A DNA stretch of 64,000 nt, taken from positions 1-64,000 of the forward strand of contig QHSP01000028.1 of NCBI GenBank assembly GCA_003220495.1. The letters are read 5' to 3'. This document shows positions 1,441 through 21,642 of the stretch, piece after piece. Within the stretch, counting starts at the first letter, position 1. Each line of letters starts with the position of its first letter. Position numbers and translations under genes: made by a program. The notes under the pieces were generated by a model. That model was not told the origin of the DNA and did no database searches. It saw only the letters and a program-made list of their open reading frames with translations. The stretch comes from Candidatus Rokuibacteriota bacterium (lineage in GTDB: Bacteria > Methylomirabilota > Methylomirabilia > Rokubacteriales > CSP1-6).

Positions 1441-3869
1441 ACGGGCGAGAACCCAGCGGGTAGGCTCGGAAATTCGACCTCGGCTATTGTTCCACCATCG
1501 AGGATGGAGCGGGGAAGAAGCGTCAAGCGCGCCCGATGAAAATCAGCAATCTCTCGACAGATTGACAACCCCAAACCGGTACCAGATGGTTTCGTCGTGA
1601 AGAAGGGCTCGAAGATTTTCGGACGGACGGCTGGATCGATTCCCACTCCTTCGTCCAAGACGCGGACGATGACCGAGTCAGCATTGACTCTGCCCCTCGA
1701 GCGATCGGCTTCAATGATGAGGGTGCCGCCTTCAGGCATCGCCTCTACTGCGTTTTTCAGCAGATTCACAAAGAGTTGAACGAGTTGACCCGGGTCACCC
1801 TGAATTTGGGGTAACTCGTCGGCGCAGTGGAGTTCAATTTTAACCATCTGCTCATGCGCAGTGGGGGAGTGAATAGCGACGATGTCTTGAAGCAGGGGCG
1901 GTATTGAGACGACGCTCAACTTTCCTCCCTCGCTAGGGGCCATCAATCGGAGACGGTCGGCGAGTCGGACGATCCTGGAAACTTCCATTGGCAGCAGCCG
2001 TACAGCGGTATCGCGATATTCGGGATCGTCGAATCGATCAGGAAGCAAGGCGACCAGATTGGAAATGGCGGCCAAGGGGTTACGAATCTCGTGCGCTATG
2101 CCCGCATAGAAGCGCGCCATGATCGCGAGGTGCTCGACTCTACGTTGATTCCTTTCAAGTGCCTTGACTGCGGAGAGGTCCGTAGCGACAACTAGAGCTC
2201 CAGATATTCGCTTTTCGTCGTCGTGTAGAACGGCAGTTGAGAGGATTACGTGAACGATTCCTCTTACCACGTGGTCGATCGTGACCTCTACCTCTCGGGG
2301 ACGCCACCCTCCGCTGAGGGCAAGGACCAAAGCCCAGCCGATCTCAGACGGAAGGACGTGCATTAAGGCTCCGTGGTACTCATCACTCAATCCAAACAAT
2401 TTCGTAGCTGCTGGATTAAAACTTGTAATCCGCCCCTCAACATCGATAGCTACAACCGCTGAGTCTATCGACTCCAGGAGGCGGTCCGAGTACTCGAGCA
2501 TGTGAATGCGCTGCCGGTAGAGAAGGGCGTTCTCAAGAGCGATTGAAGCCAGATCAGCGACCGATTCGATGAAGCCGAGATCGTTTTTGAAGTAAGCATC
2601 TCCACTACGTCGTGGACCGAGGAGGACAATCCCCAGCAATTGGCCGCGGCGTCCAAGGGTCACCAAAACCTCGACTCCGGCGGCTCGAAGAGCCGCATAA
2701 GTCCTCTTCGTGTCTTCTGTCTCTTCCCCATGGCTAACCACAAATACCGAAGTATTCGGCTGCCTTGACTGGAGGGCAGCCAGTGCGTGTGGGTCAATGT
2801 TCGGTGGAGCATCTGGTGAAAGCCGCTCGAAGGAGTCATTCGGAAATGACTTCACGAGCAGTGTGAAAGACTCGGGGACTAGAACTTCGGTGAGGATCTG
2901 ACGAAGCTCAGAAGCAAACTCCGCGGGCTGCATCAAGCGACTCAAGCGACGGGTCGCTCCAGTGAGGGCCACAGAATGTTCGATGCCTCTATAGAGATAA
3001 GGATCAACCAGGCGTGTGATGAAGCGTTGGGCGGGGCTGGAGAGCATGACGAGAGCGACGATGGTAACTACCACCAGATTGGGATGCACGAATAGGCTTT
3101 CGGCCTCCCAGGCTGGTGAGATCAATCTTGCACTCGTGATAAGAAGCGCCGACGCGACGACCATGGCCAGCACATACGCAAGACCTCGACTGATGAACAG
3201 TCGAAGGTCCATTAGTCGATGACGAATGATTGCGTGGCCGACCATTGTGACGAGAATCACGCTGAAGTATGGACCGATCCAGCTATAGGTTGAGCGACCG
3301 GTTGCCAGGGGCAGGAGGAGGTTGGCGGAGATTCCTCCAACACCTGACAAGATGATCCCGGCTCCGAGATATTGAAGCTGTGCGCGTGCTATGCCGCGCG
3401 CGCGCCACAACTTTAGAGCGAACACGACGATCGCGGCGATGAAGGTGACTAGAAAGTAGAGCGAGAAAACGACATAAAGGGGGCCAGTCTGTCTGGTCAG
3501 GCCGGCCGAGGTCATTGTCGTGCCATAGACCACTAGTGGCGTCGACAGTGCGAGGACCGCGATCACACTGGCCAAGACGAGGGTTCCACGAAGGAGTGCC
3601 GTCGGCGGCCAAGTACTTTGGGTGGGGTATGCCCTCATAAAGGAAAGAAATGATGCTGGAATCATGGCTGCACCGGCAAACGTGACGCGAGCAAAAGCGT
3701 CGAGATGTGCCCCGCTTTGGAGACCTGTTATTCCAATCATCCAGACAGCCACGAATAATGTGAAAGTGGCAAACCACAGATTAATGGCGCTGGACGGTCT
3801 AGCAAGCCAGACGAAGCCGGCCAGGGAAAGGAGCAGCGCTACGAGTGCGACTAGCGGCGCGAAGGGCAC
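1437..3869 (-). CDS. Membrane-bound sensor histidine kinase (7TM-GAF-PAS-HisKA-HATPase)
   Basis: An 810-residue sensor kinase. About seven hydrophobic segments fill residues 1-270, a GAF-like region spans about 300-450 and ends SIALENALLYRQR, and a PAS-like region about 460-570 contains AVVAIDVEGRITSFNPAA. The phospho-acceptor is His593 in HEIRNPLAAI. An N box (LLKNAVEAMPEGG), a G1 box (DEGVGI) and FEPFFTTKPSGTGLGLS complete an apparently intact HATPase domain. It should autophosphorylate in response to a membrane or cytoplasmic signal. No response regulator is present in the window. It starts 13 bases after the ketoacyl synthase and overlaps the next sensor by 4 bases, so the three genes probably form one transcript. 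The 7TM/GAF layout resembles PrsK-type kinases of exopolysaccharide systems, which is only a similarity of architecture. Confidence 0.92.
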   Translation of the reverse strand: MPFAPLVALVALLLSLAGFVWLARPSSAINLWFATFTLFVAVWMIGITGLQSGAHLDAFARVTFAGAAMIPASFLSFMRAYPTQSTWPPTALLRGTLVLASVIAVLALSTPLVVYGTTMTSAGLTRQTGPLYVVFSLYFLVTFIAAIVVFALKLWRARGIARAQLQYLGAGIILSGVGGISANLLLPLATGRSTYSWIGPYFSVILVTMVGHAIIRHRLMDLRLFISRGLAYVLAMVVASALLITSARLISPAWEAESLFVHPNLVVVTIVALVMLSSPAQRFITRLVDPYLYRGIEHSVALTGATRRLSRLMQPAEFASELRQILTEVLVPESFTLLVKSFPNDSFERLSPDAPPNIDPHALAALQSRQPNTSVFVVSHGEETEDTKRTYAALRAAGVEVLVTLGRRGQLLGIVLLGPRRSGDAYFKNDLGFIESVADLASIALENALLYRQRIHMLEYSDRLLESIDSAVVAIDVEGRITSFNPAATKLFGLSDEYHGALMHVLPSEIGWALVLALSGGWRPREVEVTIDHVVRGIVHVILSTAVLHDDEKRISGALVVATDLSAVKALERNQRRVEHLAIMARFYAGIAHEIRNPLAAISNLVALLPDRFDDPEYRDTAVRLLPMEVSRIVRLADRLRLMAPSEGGKLSVVSIPPLLQDIVAIHSPTAHEQMVKIELHCADELPQIQGDPGQLVQLFVNLLKNAVEAMPEGGTLIIEADRSRGRVNADSVIVRVLDEGVGIDPAVRPKIFEPFFTTKPSGTGLGLSICREIADFHRARLTLLPRSILDGGTIAEVEFPSLPAGFSPV

Positions 3870-3882
3870 AGAAGGTCTCGCC

Positions 3883-5124
3883 TCAATCCGGAGCGCCGAG
3901 GATCATCGCGAAATGGGCTCCTCCTAAACTGTGCGAGTGAACAAGCACCGTACGCACCCTTGCGGTGCGATAGAAATTAGGAACGTAGTCAAGATCGCAT
4001 TGCGGATCCGGCAGCTCGTAGTTGATCGTTGGAGGGACGGCCTGGTTCCGCAGGGCAAGGCATGCCACGACGACCTGCATCGCACTACTAGCGGCAAGGG
4101 CTTGCCCGCACATCGACTTAGGCGATGACACAGGCATATTCCAGGCGTGGCTCCCAAAAACTCGTTTGATCCCGGCCGTCTCTGCCGCGTCATAGTCCTG
4201 CATCGAATTGCCGTGGGCGCAAATGAGATCGATGTCTCGCGGCGCTAGACCGGCGCTTCGAAGAGCGCCCTCGATCGCCCGAGCGACCGAATCGCCAGTC
4301 TCGTCCACCTTGCGGAGGTGCGCACCTTCATTGGCGCTCCCTGCGCCAAGAATTTTCGCGTAAGCAGGAGCTGTCCGAGCCTGCGCGAGCTCCTGAGATT
4401 CTACGGTCAACACCGCTGCACCTTCGGCAAGAACGAGCCCAGAACGCAACATGTCAAACGGTCGACATGCCTCCGCAGGAGGTCCTGGCCATTTGGAAAG
4501 TACGCCGACGGATTGGAATACGCGCAACATGAACTCGGAGAGAGGTGCTTCCGCTGCTCCAGCGACGACCGCTGTAGCATTCCCTTCTGTGATTTGCTCG
4601 GCTGCCCAGCCAATGGCATCCAAGCCCGCTGCGCAGGCTGTGGCAAAGGTCGTTGTTTGACCGGTCGCGCCCGCATGAATGGCGACGTGAGCGGTTGCCG
4701 CGTGTGCTGGGAACTCCAATGCACCCCAAGGGACAATTTGACCACCGCGGAGAAACGATTCGTAATTGGGCTGTGCGACATCGATGTAGCCGTTAATCGA
4801 GGTTCCGATCGCAACCTTCACTCGGTCTGCCGGAACACCAGCGGTATCGAGGCGACTATCAGTGCGGGCCATGCGTGCTGCTGCCACAGCGAACTGACTG
4901 AATCGGGCCGTCGTCTTGACCTCACGGGCCGGCATCCACTCGAGAGGATTGAAGTCTCGGACCTCCCCGACGATCCGGCACTCGGGCGGGAGCTTTGAGC
5001 TGTCGAACAGAGTTGGCCGGCCGATGCCCGAACGGCCGGCGAGCGCGGCTTCCCAGAACTTCTCGACACCGATGCCGATGGGGGAAACGATCCCGAGTCC
5101 GGTGATGACGGGCTGGTGCTTCAT
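3883..5124 (-). CDS. Beta-ketoacyl synthase family protein with altered catalytic triad
   Basis: A 413-residue FabF/KAS II-type condensing enzyme with the VITGLGIVSPIG start typical of the family. The nucleophile is Cys164 in FATACAAGLDA and the first active-site histidine is His304 in CAHGNS. The second histidine, normally in KSxxGH, is replaced: the sequence reads KSMCGQALAA, with Lys336 kept and Gln341 in the His position. This may change or abolish decarboxylative condensation. No acyl carrier protein, ketoreductase or acyltransferase lies next to it; the downstream genes are sensor kinases. It could act in a specialised lipid or polyketide pathway, or be a non-condensing homologue. ATG start at 5124. 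A divergent intergenic region with an inverted repeat lies upstream. Confidence 0.88.
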   Translation of the reverse strand: MKHQPVITGLGIVSPIGIGVEKFWEAALAGRSGIGRPTLFDSSKLPPECRIVGEVRDFNPLEWMPAREVKTTARFSQFAVAAARMARTDSRLDTAGVPADRVKVAIGTSINGYIDVAQPNYESFLRGGQIVPWGALEFPAHAATAHVAIHAGATGQTTTFATACAAGLDAIGWAAEQITEGNATAVVAGAAEAPLSEFMLRVFQSVGVLSKWPGPPAEACRPFDMLRSGLVLAEGAAVLTVESQELAQARTAPAYAKILGAGSANEGAHLRKVDETGDSVARAIEGALRSAGLAPRDIDLICAHGNSMQDYDAAETAGIKRVFGSHAWNMPVSSPKSMCGQALAASSAMQVVVACLALRNQAVPPTINYELPDPQCDLDYVPNFYRTARVRTVLVHSHSLGGAHFAMILGAPD

Positions 5125-19226: not shown

Positions 19227-19535
19227 TCAGACCCGCTCGGCGAGGTGGCGGTCATGTACCTGGGCAAGATCGTCGAGCGTGCCAAGACAGAAGAGTTGTT
19301 CAAGAATCCAGCGCACCCCTACACCAAGGCGCTCTTCTCGGCTGCCCTCCCGGCTCACCCGGACATTGTGCGAGAGGAGATGATTCTCGCGGGGGAAGTC
19401 CCGTCGCCCATCAATCCCCCATCGGGCTGCCGCTTCCATCCTCGTTGCCCCTTCGTCATGCCCCAGTGCGCGAAGGTCGAGCCGGAAGAGAAAGAGATCG
19501 TCGCCGATCACGTGGTGGCGTGTCACCTTTTCTGA
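19227..19535 (+). pseudogene. 5'-truncated oligopeptide ABC transporter ATPase (OppF/DppF C-terminus)
   Basis: The frame encodes [20 protein letters not shown], then [16 protein letters not shown] and a tail with [16 protein letters not shown]. This is the last third of DppF/OppF including the oligopeptide-transporter C-terminal Cys motif. Walker A, the ABC signature and Walker B are absent: the homologous sequence starts abruptly at about 19240, replacing the usual ADRVAVMYLG. Upstream 19111-19226 shows nothing recognisable. An in-frame GTG (19245) and ATG (19254) exist, but a 90-residue product would have no nucleotide-binding site. It is best read as a remnant of a deletion or rearrangement. 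Confidence 0.8.
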
Positions 19536-20427: not shown

Positions 20428-21135
20428 TCACGCCGCGGCCGCGGGCCGGCACACCCGGCATGGGCGGTACCCCACGCTCGCGGCATCGGCGACCGACGCG
20501 AAGACGATTCGATTCGCTTCGCCGACTCGCTGCTCGTGGGCGCAGCCGCGCCGGCAGATGATCCGCGTGCTCGTGCAGCCGATCAGCGCGGGGGTGGTGC
20601 GCTCGAGCCGCAGGAGCTGGGTCTTCATCGCGCCCCCGAAGGCGTAGTGGCCCCAGGTTCCGTCACCGCGGACGATGCGGTGGCATGGGACGATCACCGG
20701 CACCGGATTGGCCCCGAGCGCGTTGCCGACCGCGCGCGCGGCGCGCGGATGACCCACGCGGCGCGCGAGGGCCGAATAGGAATCGACCTCGCCGAACTGA
20801 ACGCGGCTCGCCTCGGCGAGCACGCGGGCCTGGAAGTCGCCGATGCCCTCGAGGTCGACCGCCACCGTGAAGAACGTCCGGCGGCCGGCCAGGTATTCGC
20901 GCAGCTCTTGCCGGGCGCGCTCGGCGTGAGCGCGCGCCCGGGCGGAGCTGCCGTGGTCGCCGCGCCCGGGGTGCAGCCGCACGACACCGCGCTCGGTCGC
21001 CTCGATCCGGAACCTGCCGGCCAGCTTCTCCAGGCCGGCCGGCCTGGTTCTGAGACCTCCGAGGAGCCGCTCGGACAGCTTCGGCGGAGCGGCGGGCTTG
21101 AAGAATTCTTCGAGCATCGTGTCGATCCGATCCAT
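20428..21135 (-). CDS. O6-alkylguanine-DNA alkyltransferase with C-terminal Ada-type Zn/methyl-acceptor domain
   Basis: 235 residues. Residues about 40-180 are an Ogt/MGMT suicide alkyltransferase: NPVPVIVPCHRIV holds acceptor Cys151, and the DNA-binding helix VGHPRAARAVGNALG precedes it. Residues 184-231 match the Ada N-terminal domain: Cys194 and Cys198 (IICRRGC) plus Cys226 and Cys229 (GYRPCRVCRP). The C-x3-C / C-x2-C pattern and about 28-residue interval are those of E. coli Ada Cys38/42/69/72, where Cys38 accepts methyl from phosphotriesters. In E. coli Ada this domain is N-terminal and followed by an AraC-type HTH; here the order is inverted and no HTH is seen. The gene starts 4 bases after the sigma factor gene, so they are cotranscribed. 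The first 35 residues are of unknown origin. Confidence 0.9.
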   Translation of the reverse strand: MDRIDTMLEEFFKPAAPPKLSERLLGGLRTRPAGLEKLAGRFRIEATERGVVRLHPGRGDHGSSARARAHAERARQELREYLAGRRTFFTVAVDLEGIGDFQARVLAEASRVQFGEVDSYSALARRVGHPRAARAVGNALGANPVPVIVPCHRIVRGDGTWGHYAFGGAMKTQLLRLERTTPALIGCTSTRIICRRGCAHEQRVGEANRIVFASVADAASVGYRPCRVCRPAAAA

Positions 21136-21139
21136 GTCC

Positions 21140-21598
21140 CTATCCCTCCAGCGCTCGCTTCAGGATCGCCTTGCCTCGCGCGAGCTGACTCTTGACCGTG
21201 TTGACCGAGATGCCTCTGATGGTCGCGAGCTCGCGGTACCCGAGGCCGTTCACGTAGTGGAGCGCGAGCAGGACACGAGCCTCGCGGGGCACCGTGTCCA
21301 GCGCGCGCGCCAGGTCCAGCCGTTCGACCGCCGTGCCGCTCCGCCCGCGCGGCAGCTCTTCGGGCGGTGTGCGCCGGCGCCGGCGGAGCTCGTCGATGCA
21401 CACGTTCGTGAGCACGCGATAGAGCCACGTCGATACCGCCCACCGGCTCACGTACGATTCGCGCGCCTCGAAGGCCTTCAGCAGCGCGCGCTGGACCGCA
21501 TCCTCCGCGTCGGCCCGGTTCCCGAGCAGGCGGTAGGCCACCGCGTACAGCCGGGCGGCATATTCTTCGGCAGTGCGGGCGAACGCGCGTTCGTCCAT
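21140..21598 (-). CDS. ECF-type RNA polymerase sigma factor
   Basis: 152 residues. Region 2 covers YAARLYAVAYRLLGNRADAE through VSTWLYRVLTNVCIDELRRR. Region 4 covers PREARVLLALHYVNGLGYRE and ISVNTVKSQLARGKAILKR, a helix-turn-helix for -35 recognition. The usual adjacent anti-sigma gene is missing; the downstream cotranscribed gene is an alkyltransferase-Ada protein instead. This suggests control by DNA alkylation status or simple coexpression (inference). ATG 21598 is preceded on this strand by TATAAC ending 8 bases earlier. The protein is short for the family but both domains are present. Confidence 0.9.
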   Translation of the reverse strand: MDERAFARTAEEYAARLYAVAYRLLGNRADAEDAVQRALLKAFEARESYVSRWAVSTWLYRVLTNVCIDELRRRRRTPPEELPRGRSGTAVERLDLARALDTVPREARVLLALHYVNGLGYRELATIRGISVNTVKSQLARGKAILKRALEG

Positions 21599-21606
21599 CT
21601 CGACCA

Positions 21607-21612
21607 GTTATA
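21607..21612 (-). promoter_or_regulatory. -10 element of sigma factor/alkyltransferase operon
   Basis: TATAAC on the minus strand (21612 to 21607) ends 8 bases before ATG 21598. No Shine-Dalgarno sequence lies between, consistent with a short or absent leader. Confidence 0.45.
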
Positions 21613-21642
21613 CGCGCCAGACATGCAGAAGGGTGGAAGCGC

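Follow-up and report, generated by a model that had tools for sequence, protein, structure and literature searches.

How is an ECF sigma factor controlled when the gene cotranscribed with it encodes a DNA alkyltransferase and neither gene flanking the two encodes an anti-sigma factor? The question is raised by an operon on the minus strand of the window, i.e. the whole 64,000-nucleotide stretch analysed here (positions 1 to 64,000 of contig QHSP01000028.1, Candidatus Rokuibacteriota, a group of uncultured soil bacteria). The answer favoured below, with a probability of roughly 0.6, is that the two proteins form a sigma/anti-sigma pair in which a suicide DNA-repair enzyme plays the anti-sigma part, and that alkyl transfer to this enzyme would free the sigma factor.

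The operon and its two proteins

The ECF sigma factor gene (21140-21598, minus strand) encoded 152 aa with regions 2 and 4, matching Sigma70_r2 (9e-19) and Sigma70_r4_2 (6.5e-13), both over the Pfam cut-off; two Sigma70 regions and no others, in a protein of this length, agreed with the ECF form (about 150-200 aa), and the protein belonged to a sigma-tree clade of its own. The MGMT-AdaZn alkyltransferase gene (20428-21135, minus strand; 235 aa), whose product is proposed here to be an alkylation-sensing anti-sigma factor, began exactly 4 bases after the sigma stop codon (intergenic bases 21136-21139), the distance given in the first-pass annotation. The operon was flanked by an amidohydrolase gene and a molybdopterin dehydrogenase gene, and inspection of both found no separate anti-sigma gene adjoining the pair. 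Elsewhere in the window, positions 19245-19535 (plus strand) held a 96-aa C-terminal remnant resembling an oligopeptide ABC-transporter ATPase, likely a truncated pseudogene, the rest of the gene having no room.

The O6-alkylguanine-DNA alkyltransferase domains occupied residues 36-180 (20596-21030, minus strand), with PF01035 matched at residues 100-179 (E 5.7e-27). They contained the PCHR motif with active-site Cys151 (codon 20683-20685, minus strand), the Arg finger and the active-site Asn and Glu of MGMT/Ogt proteins, and by Foldseek fell on M. tuberculosis OGT. Fold and catalytic residues were those of M. tuberculosis OGT (4bhb) and E. coli Ada-C (1sfe), both of which are without an N-terminal segment, an AdaZn tail and a sigma partner.

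At the C terminus followed a minimal Ada-type zinc domain (residues 185-231; 20443-20583, minus strand). PF02805 (Ada_Zn_binding) matched it at 3.7e-7 and 30.5 bits (cut-off 23), spanning profile positions 19-64 of 65 only, and the domain superposed on methylated E. coli N-Ada (1u8b) with 1.8 A over 48 columns. The cysteines of the protein were 151 (in PCHR), 187, 194, 198, 226 and 229. The last four formed the C-terminal Ada-type quartet that had been recognised from the letters alone, with Cys194 (codon 20554-20556, minus strand) as the likely methyl-acceptor counterpart of E. coli Cys38. Their spacing had been equated with that of E. coli Ada, which held nearly but not exactly: both agree with C-x3-C-x26/27-C-x2-C, at 3/27/2 in the window and 3/26/2 in Ada (C38/C42/C69/C72). 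Across 34 homologues C194, C198, C226, C229, PC151HR, Y120, R134, N143 and E178 were invariant, and C187 varied. AlphaFold confidence was mostly >90 for the alkyltransferase and AdaZn domains. A selenocysteine reading of the in-frame TGA in several relatives was rejected; alignments of three of them showed a protein normal to the gene end, so the TGA was taken as an ordinary stop.

Pfam found no AraC-type HTH in the alkyltransferase, again as first annotated, and the protein therefore differed from the bifunctional Ada regulator, in which an N-terminal AdaZn is followed by such an HTH. It is similar to E. coli Ada and to the split AdaA/AdaB in joining AdaZn and alkyltransferase in one protein, in its predicted autoregulation and in its proposed alkylation-repair regulon. 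It differs in the reversed domain order, the minimal AdaZn, the missing AraC HTH and the ECF sigma partner, with a sigma factor and not an activator predicted to read the promoter.

Conservation of the pair and the N-terminal segment

Some alkyltransferase match occurred in 82 of 95 genomes of Methylomirabilota, and 49 non-redundant loci of the window-type alkyltransferase were read. A sigma gene lay directly upstream on the same strand in 43 of the 49 and was absent in six. The first-pass annotation had named absence of the pair from relatives as one ground for refuting its proposal, and these 43 intact loci, among which the surroundings of the pair change, did not bear out that refutation. 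A sigma tree of 57 sequences grouped all window-type sigma factors in one clade (support 100/99) and placed the generic ECFs of the phylum outside it. The MGMT-then-AdaZn order recurred at loci that have no sigma gene (L132-L134), and the inverted order therefore does not define the pair; of the two features that had been put forward for a genome survey, linkage to the sigma gene was conserved and domain order failed as a hallmark. One further operon copy with the same promoter was present in a record labelled Acidobacteria (L052, CR_Sed_300A_bin.1), through horizontal transfer or mislabelling of the genome bin.

Adjacency in one short window proves no link by itself, and sigma factor and repair enzyme could be functionally unlinked neighbours in a trivial operon. 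Given the 43 conserved loci in changing surroundings, the dedicated promoter and the fact that ECF-MGMT pairs have recurred independently, in further ECF clades and further phyla, such an accident is extremely improbable.

The alkyltransferase began with a segment of about 30 residues (MDRIDTMLEEFFKPAAPPKLSERLLGGLR; residues 1-31, 21043-21135, minus strand; helix 2-11, loop, helix 20-26) that was absent from ordinary alkyltransferases and had not been mentioned in the first annotation. Every locus with the sigma gene kept it (43/43), and 5/6 loci that lack the sigma gene were without it (43:0 vs 1:5; Fisher p 3e-6, kinship not corrected for). The five loci lacking both segment and sigma gene belonged to four genera (G064, G065, G083, G086 and G089; for L147, in G083, the absence of the segment was called from direct inspection of the sequence), and their genomes retained generic ECFs only, of about 36% identity. 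The shortened alkyltransferase gene of G083 and of G086 was directly preceded by the operon promoter, still in exact or near-exact form. The remaining sigma-less locus, L121 (G007:C4, 2757-3507, plus strand), retained about half of the segment; there, a deletion that could also be an assembly error had joined the start of the sigma gene to the alkyltransferase and removed the remainder of that gene.

AdaZn was lost in 3/6 sigma-less loci and in 0/42 complete sigma-bearing loci; the chance of this pattern under random loss was 20/17296, although the numbers are small and one of these losses (G083) was pieced together from two contigs. A tie between the Ada-like domain and the sigma factor, as suggested at first pass, gains from this tendency of AdaZn to vanish with the sigma gene and from the invariance of its four cysteines.

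Residues 1-31 are proposed, from their sequence and distribution, to be a minimal anti-sigma element. The orthologue of a sister lineage (f7) bears on this proposal. Its segment ran into a ZAS-like zinc finger (AHLEGCLRCRQWW) matching anti-sigma models (NF052375, a zinc-finger anti-sigma model, at E 4.5e-5), and within the same clade (100/99) its sigma factor formed the sister branch of the remaining window-type sigma factors. The ZAS N terminus of L124/L129 aligned through the window-type segment. An HMM of the segment alone did not reach ZAS proteins, so that the case for homology between segment and ZAS comes from aligning the whole proteins and from the sigma tree; against the PDB, the ZAS region returned chance matches only. 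The ZAS domain, an HxxxCxxC zinc-finger helix bundle, was present in L124, L129, L140, L149, L053 and L054, and the window protein did not have it. Since the alkyltransferase N terminus tracks the sigma gene and the sister lineage carries a ZAS domain there, the original statement that this ECF sigma factor has no anti-sigma partner is probably wrong.

Like the ZAS anti-sigma factors RsrA, ChrR and RsiW, the window protein is encoded directly after the ECF gene; the HxxxCxxC zinc finger is found in its sister-lineage counterpart and is lacking in the window form. Among short class II anti-sigma factors (CnrY, NepR), the two-helix segment is reminiscent of CnrY. From both groups the window protein differs in that its sensor part is a DNA alkyltransferase and its sigma binding is predicted.

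Structure models were compared with and without the sigma factor. In the AlphaFold model of MGMT-AdaZn alone, both helices of the segment stood detached, at a confidence of about 50. Sigma factor and MGMT-AdaZn of L012 were then modelled as a joined chain (unpaired rows, 6-residue linker), with three naturally in-frame loci in the alignment; a stop codon was read as Gly there solely to unite the two proteins, and read-through is not claimed. Confidence of the N-terminal helices rose from 58/46/50 alone to 83/71/69 in the joined chain. The joined-chain sigma factor resembled RsiW-bound SigW (TM 0.79-0.81) and not RNAP-bound SigH (0.36-0.42), and was compact as in NepR-bound RpoE, not open as in the RNA polymerase-bound form. 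The model is weak evidence of contact between segment and sigma factor, as compact ECF models might form even without a partner.

Alternatively, MGMT-AdaZn may be a mere target of a sigma factor that is controlled otherwise (by transcription or proteolysis), with the segment serving, for example, stability. A self-activating operon made up of a sigma gene and a repair gene would yield the same promoter and gene data, and ECF groups without anti-sigma factors exist, among which PMC8999054 lists ECF122 with its MGMT neighbours. This alternative leaves unexplained the loss of the segment alongside the sigma gene in several genera and the fusion of ZAS domains to the same enzyme beside ECF genes, and is considered unlikely.

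Promoter and regulon

An ECF-type promoter (21607-21638, minus strand) was found in the 44-base gap between the sigma gene and the preceding gene, with TTCCACCC at 21631-21638, a 16-nt spacer and CGTATAAC at 21607-21614. Its end lay 8 nt from the sigma ATG, about 8 nt being usual in relatives, and from this short distance the operon mRNA is likely leaderless. The general form upstream of sigma genes was TTCCACCC-N16/17-CGTATA(A/C)C. The exact pattern, with spacers of 14-18 nt allowed, was present in 32/57 family genomes and occurred once in the window genome; the reversed pattern, as a control, had 0 occurrences in the same 57 genomes. A relaxed pattern was located within 150 nt upstream of 29/42 sigma genes (background rate 1.5%), with spacers of 16 or 17 nt only. 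A scan of the genus with two mismatches gave mostly noise, matches being little above control, and those of its sites without conservation at orthologous genes were set aside.

Such conserved sites preceded the gene for Oxygenase-NA (PF09859), an AlkB-type 2OG dioxygenase that Pfam describes as acting on damaged DNA. The near-match CCACCC-N16-CGTATAAC stood before this gene in the window genome and two congeners, and an exact match in a third congener (G000, the window genome, G050, G053 and G049 in all). In nine genomes of other genera, Oxygenase-NA was directly downstream of the alkyltransferase, within the operon (G056, G057, G058, G060, G067, G069, G070, G071 and G072). The relocation of the gene together with the promoter argues strongly, at the level of sequence, that the sigma factor reads TTCCACCC-N16/17-CGTATA and that its regulon concerns alkylation damage. 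An alkylation response without an AraC-type activator, as had been supposed, is in this sense indicated by promoter and gene context, but not as the sole such system of the genome: an ordinary AdaZn-AraC regulator (L142, G000:C55:86000-93000) was present as a 268-aa open frame, without the ECF promoter upstream.

Exact promoter copies also preceded EamA exporter genes (L201, L206, L210), MFS exporter genes (L207, L211) and luciferase-like oxidoreductase genes (L202, L204). These sites spanned several genera and included some genomes without the pair, in which the exact promoter stood before transporters (L209-L211). Such genomes may have a second sigma factor of the same promoter specificity or may have lost the pair, and export of alkylating compounds is a possible role of the exporters.

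The sequences themselves show the conserved pair and promoter, the sharing of promoter or operon with alkylation-repair genes, intact catalytic residues in both domains, the tie between segment and sigma gene and the ZAS form of the sister lineage; we infer that the sigma factor is bound, that control runs in the anti-sigma direction and that alkylation is the release signal. In the resting state, MGMT-AdaZn would hold the ECF sigma factor by its N-terminal helical segment. On meeting alkylated DNA, the protein would irreversibly accept an alkyl group at Cys151 (from O6-alkylguanine), at Cys194 (from methylphosphotriester) or at both, either of which could carry the signal, and a changed conformation, DNA occupancy or stability of the alkylated protein would presumably release the sigma factor. 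Once free, the sigma factor would transcribe its own operon from the promoter described, giving more repair protein, and would drive the AlkB-like demethylase Oxygenase-NA, encoded either within the operon or behind a promoter copy far from it.

MGMT-AdaZn might instead act as a co-activator after the manner of E. coli Ada, its N terminus binding the sigma factor and its methylated AdaZn domain aiding sigma factor and RNA polymerase at promoters. In E. coli Ada, methylation of the AdaZn domain switches on DNA binding (PDB 1u8b/1zgw); the window-type AdaZn keeps all four cysteines and is often lost with the sigma factor. AdaZn is wholly absent from ECF122-like pairs (L137), the ZAS domain of the sister lineage suggests inhibition, and non-systematic inspection upstream of the promoter revealed no Ada-box-like element, so that co-activation is quite improbable.

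Related pairs elsewhere

The window genome contained a second pair (L140, G000:C121:8000-13000; 2296-4088, minus strand), an ECF gene overlapping a gene for a ZAS-MGMT-Ada-like protein, whose orthologues seem widespread in the family. A ZAS-MGMT fusion with an ECF gene was also found at L149 (zf-HC2, 22.4 bits against a cut-off of 22.2), and Chloroflexota-type genomes had ECF and ZAS-MGMT without AdaZn (L053, L054); in Chloroflexota the association of segment and sigma gene was not significant.

In a different ECF clade, from Actinomycetia and some Rokubacteria, MGMT carried a conserved N-terminal helix (LPxxDxexxxRLHxRL) that was strongly, though imperfectly, associated with the sigma gene (33:5 against 5:24, at least one of the exceptions, L290, being a frame artefact). 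AlkB, Tag or Oxygenase-NA directly followed several Actinomycetia-type sigma-MGMT pairs. This clade is probably ECF122, which PMC8999054, citing the 2021 ECF reclassification, lists with MGMT genes as neighbours, without an anti-sigma factor and with a mechanism yet to be explained. The window pair is like ECF122 in the conserved position of an MGMT gene beside the ECF gene, without a separate anti-sigma gene (PMC8999054), and like the ECF122-like pairs in the N-terminal helical extension of MGMT and in the alkylation-repair genes downstream. It differs in that its sigma factor belongs to another clade, its MGMT carries AdaZn and its promoter and regulon are those set out above, the label ECF122 for the compared pairs being itself tentative. 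ECFs without MGMT partners separated the ECF122-like clade from the window type in the sigma tree, so the ECF-MGMT association appears to have arisen at least twice, the deep branches calling for caution.

A wider claim, held at about even odds, is that an alkyltransferase consumed by repair serves as anti-sigma factor of its own ECF, one sigma factor being freed per lesion, with multiple origins in several phyla (ZAS, short-helix and AdaZn forms), and that it is the missing regulator of ECF122. ECF-MGMT linkage as such was already known from ECF122 (PMC8999054). The literature search found no paper on the ECF/MGMT-AdaZn pair as an alkylation switch; as far as that search went, the MGMT-AdaZn partner, the promoter and the alkylation regulon are new, and so are the interpretation of the N terminus, with ZAS intermediates, as an anti-sigma part and the independent recurrence. 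If true, the Ada activator would not be the only basis of an adaptive response to DNA alkylation in bacteria: a second one would work through a sigma factor, with a repair enzyme as both lesion counter and switch, and the control of ECF122 would be explained. The minimal anti-sigma element would then sit on a covalently labelable enzyme (SNAP-tag chemistry), which would make it easy to test.

At L240, L243 and L245, where Oxygenase-NA adjoined ECF122-like sigma-MGMT pairs of Rokubacteria, the gene was preceded by another conserved sequence that resembles a promoter, CACGAAC...GGGACGTTTACC.
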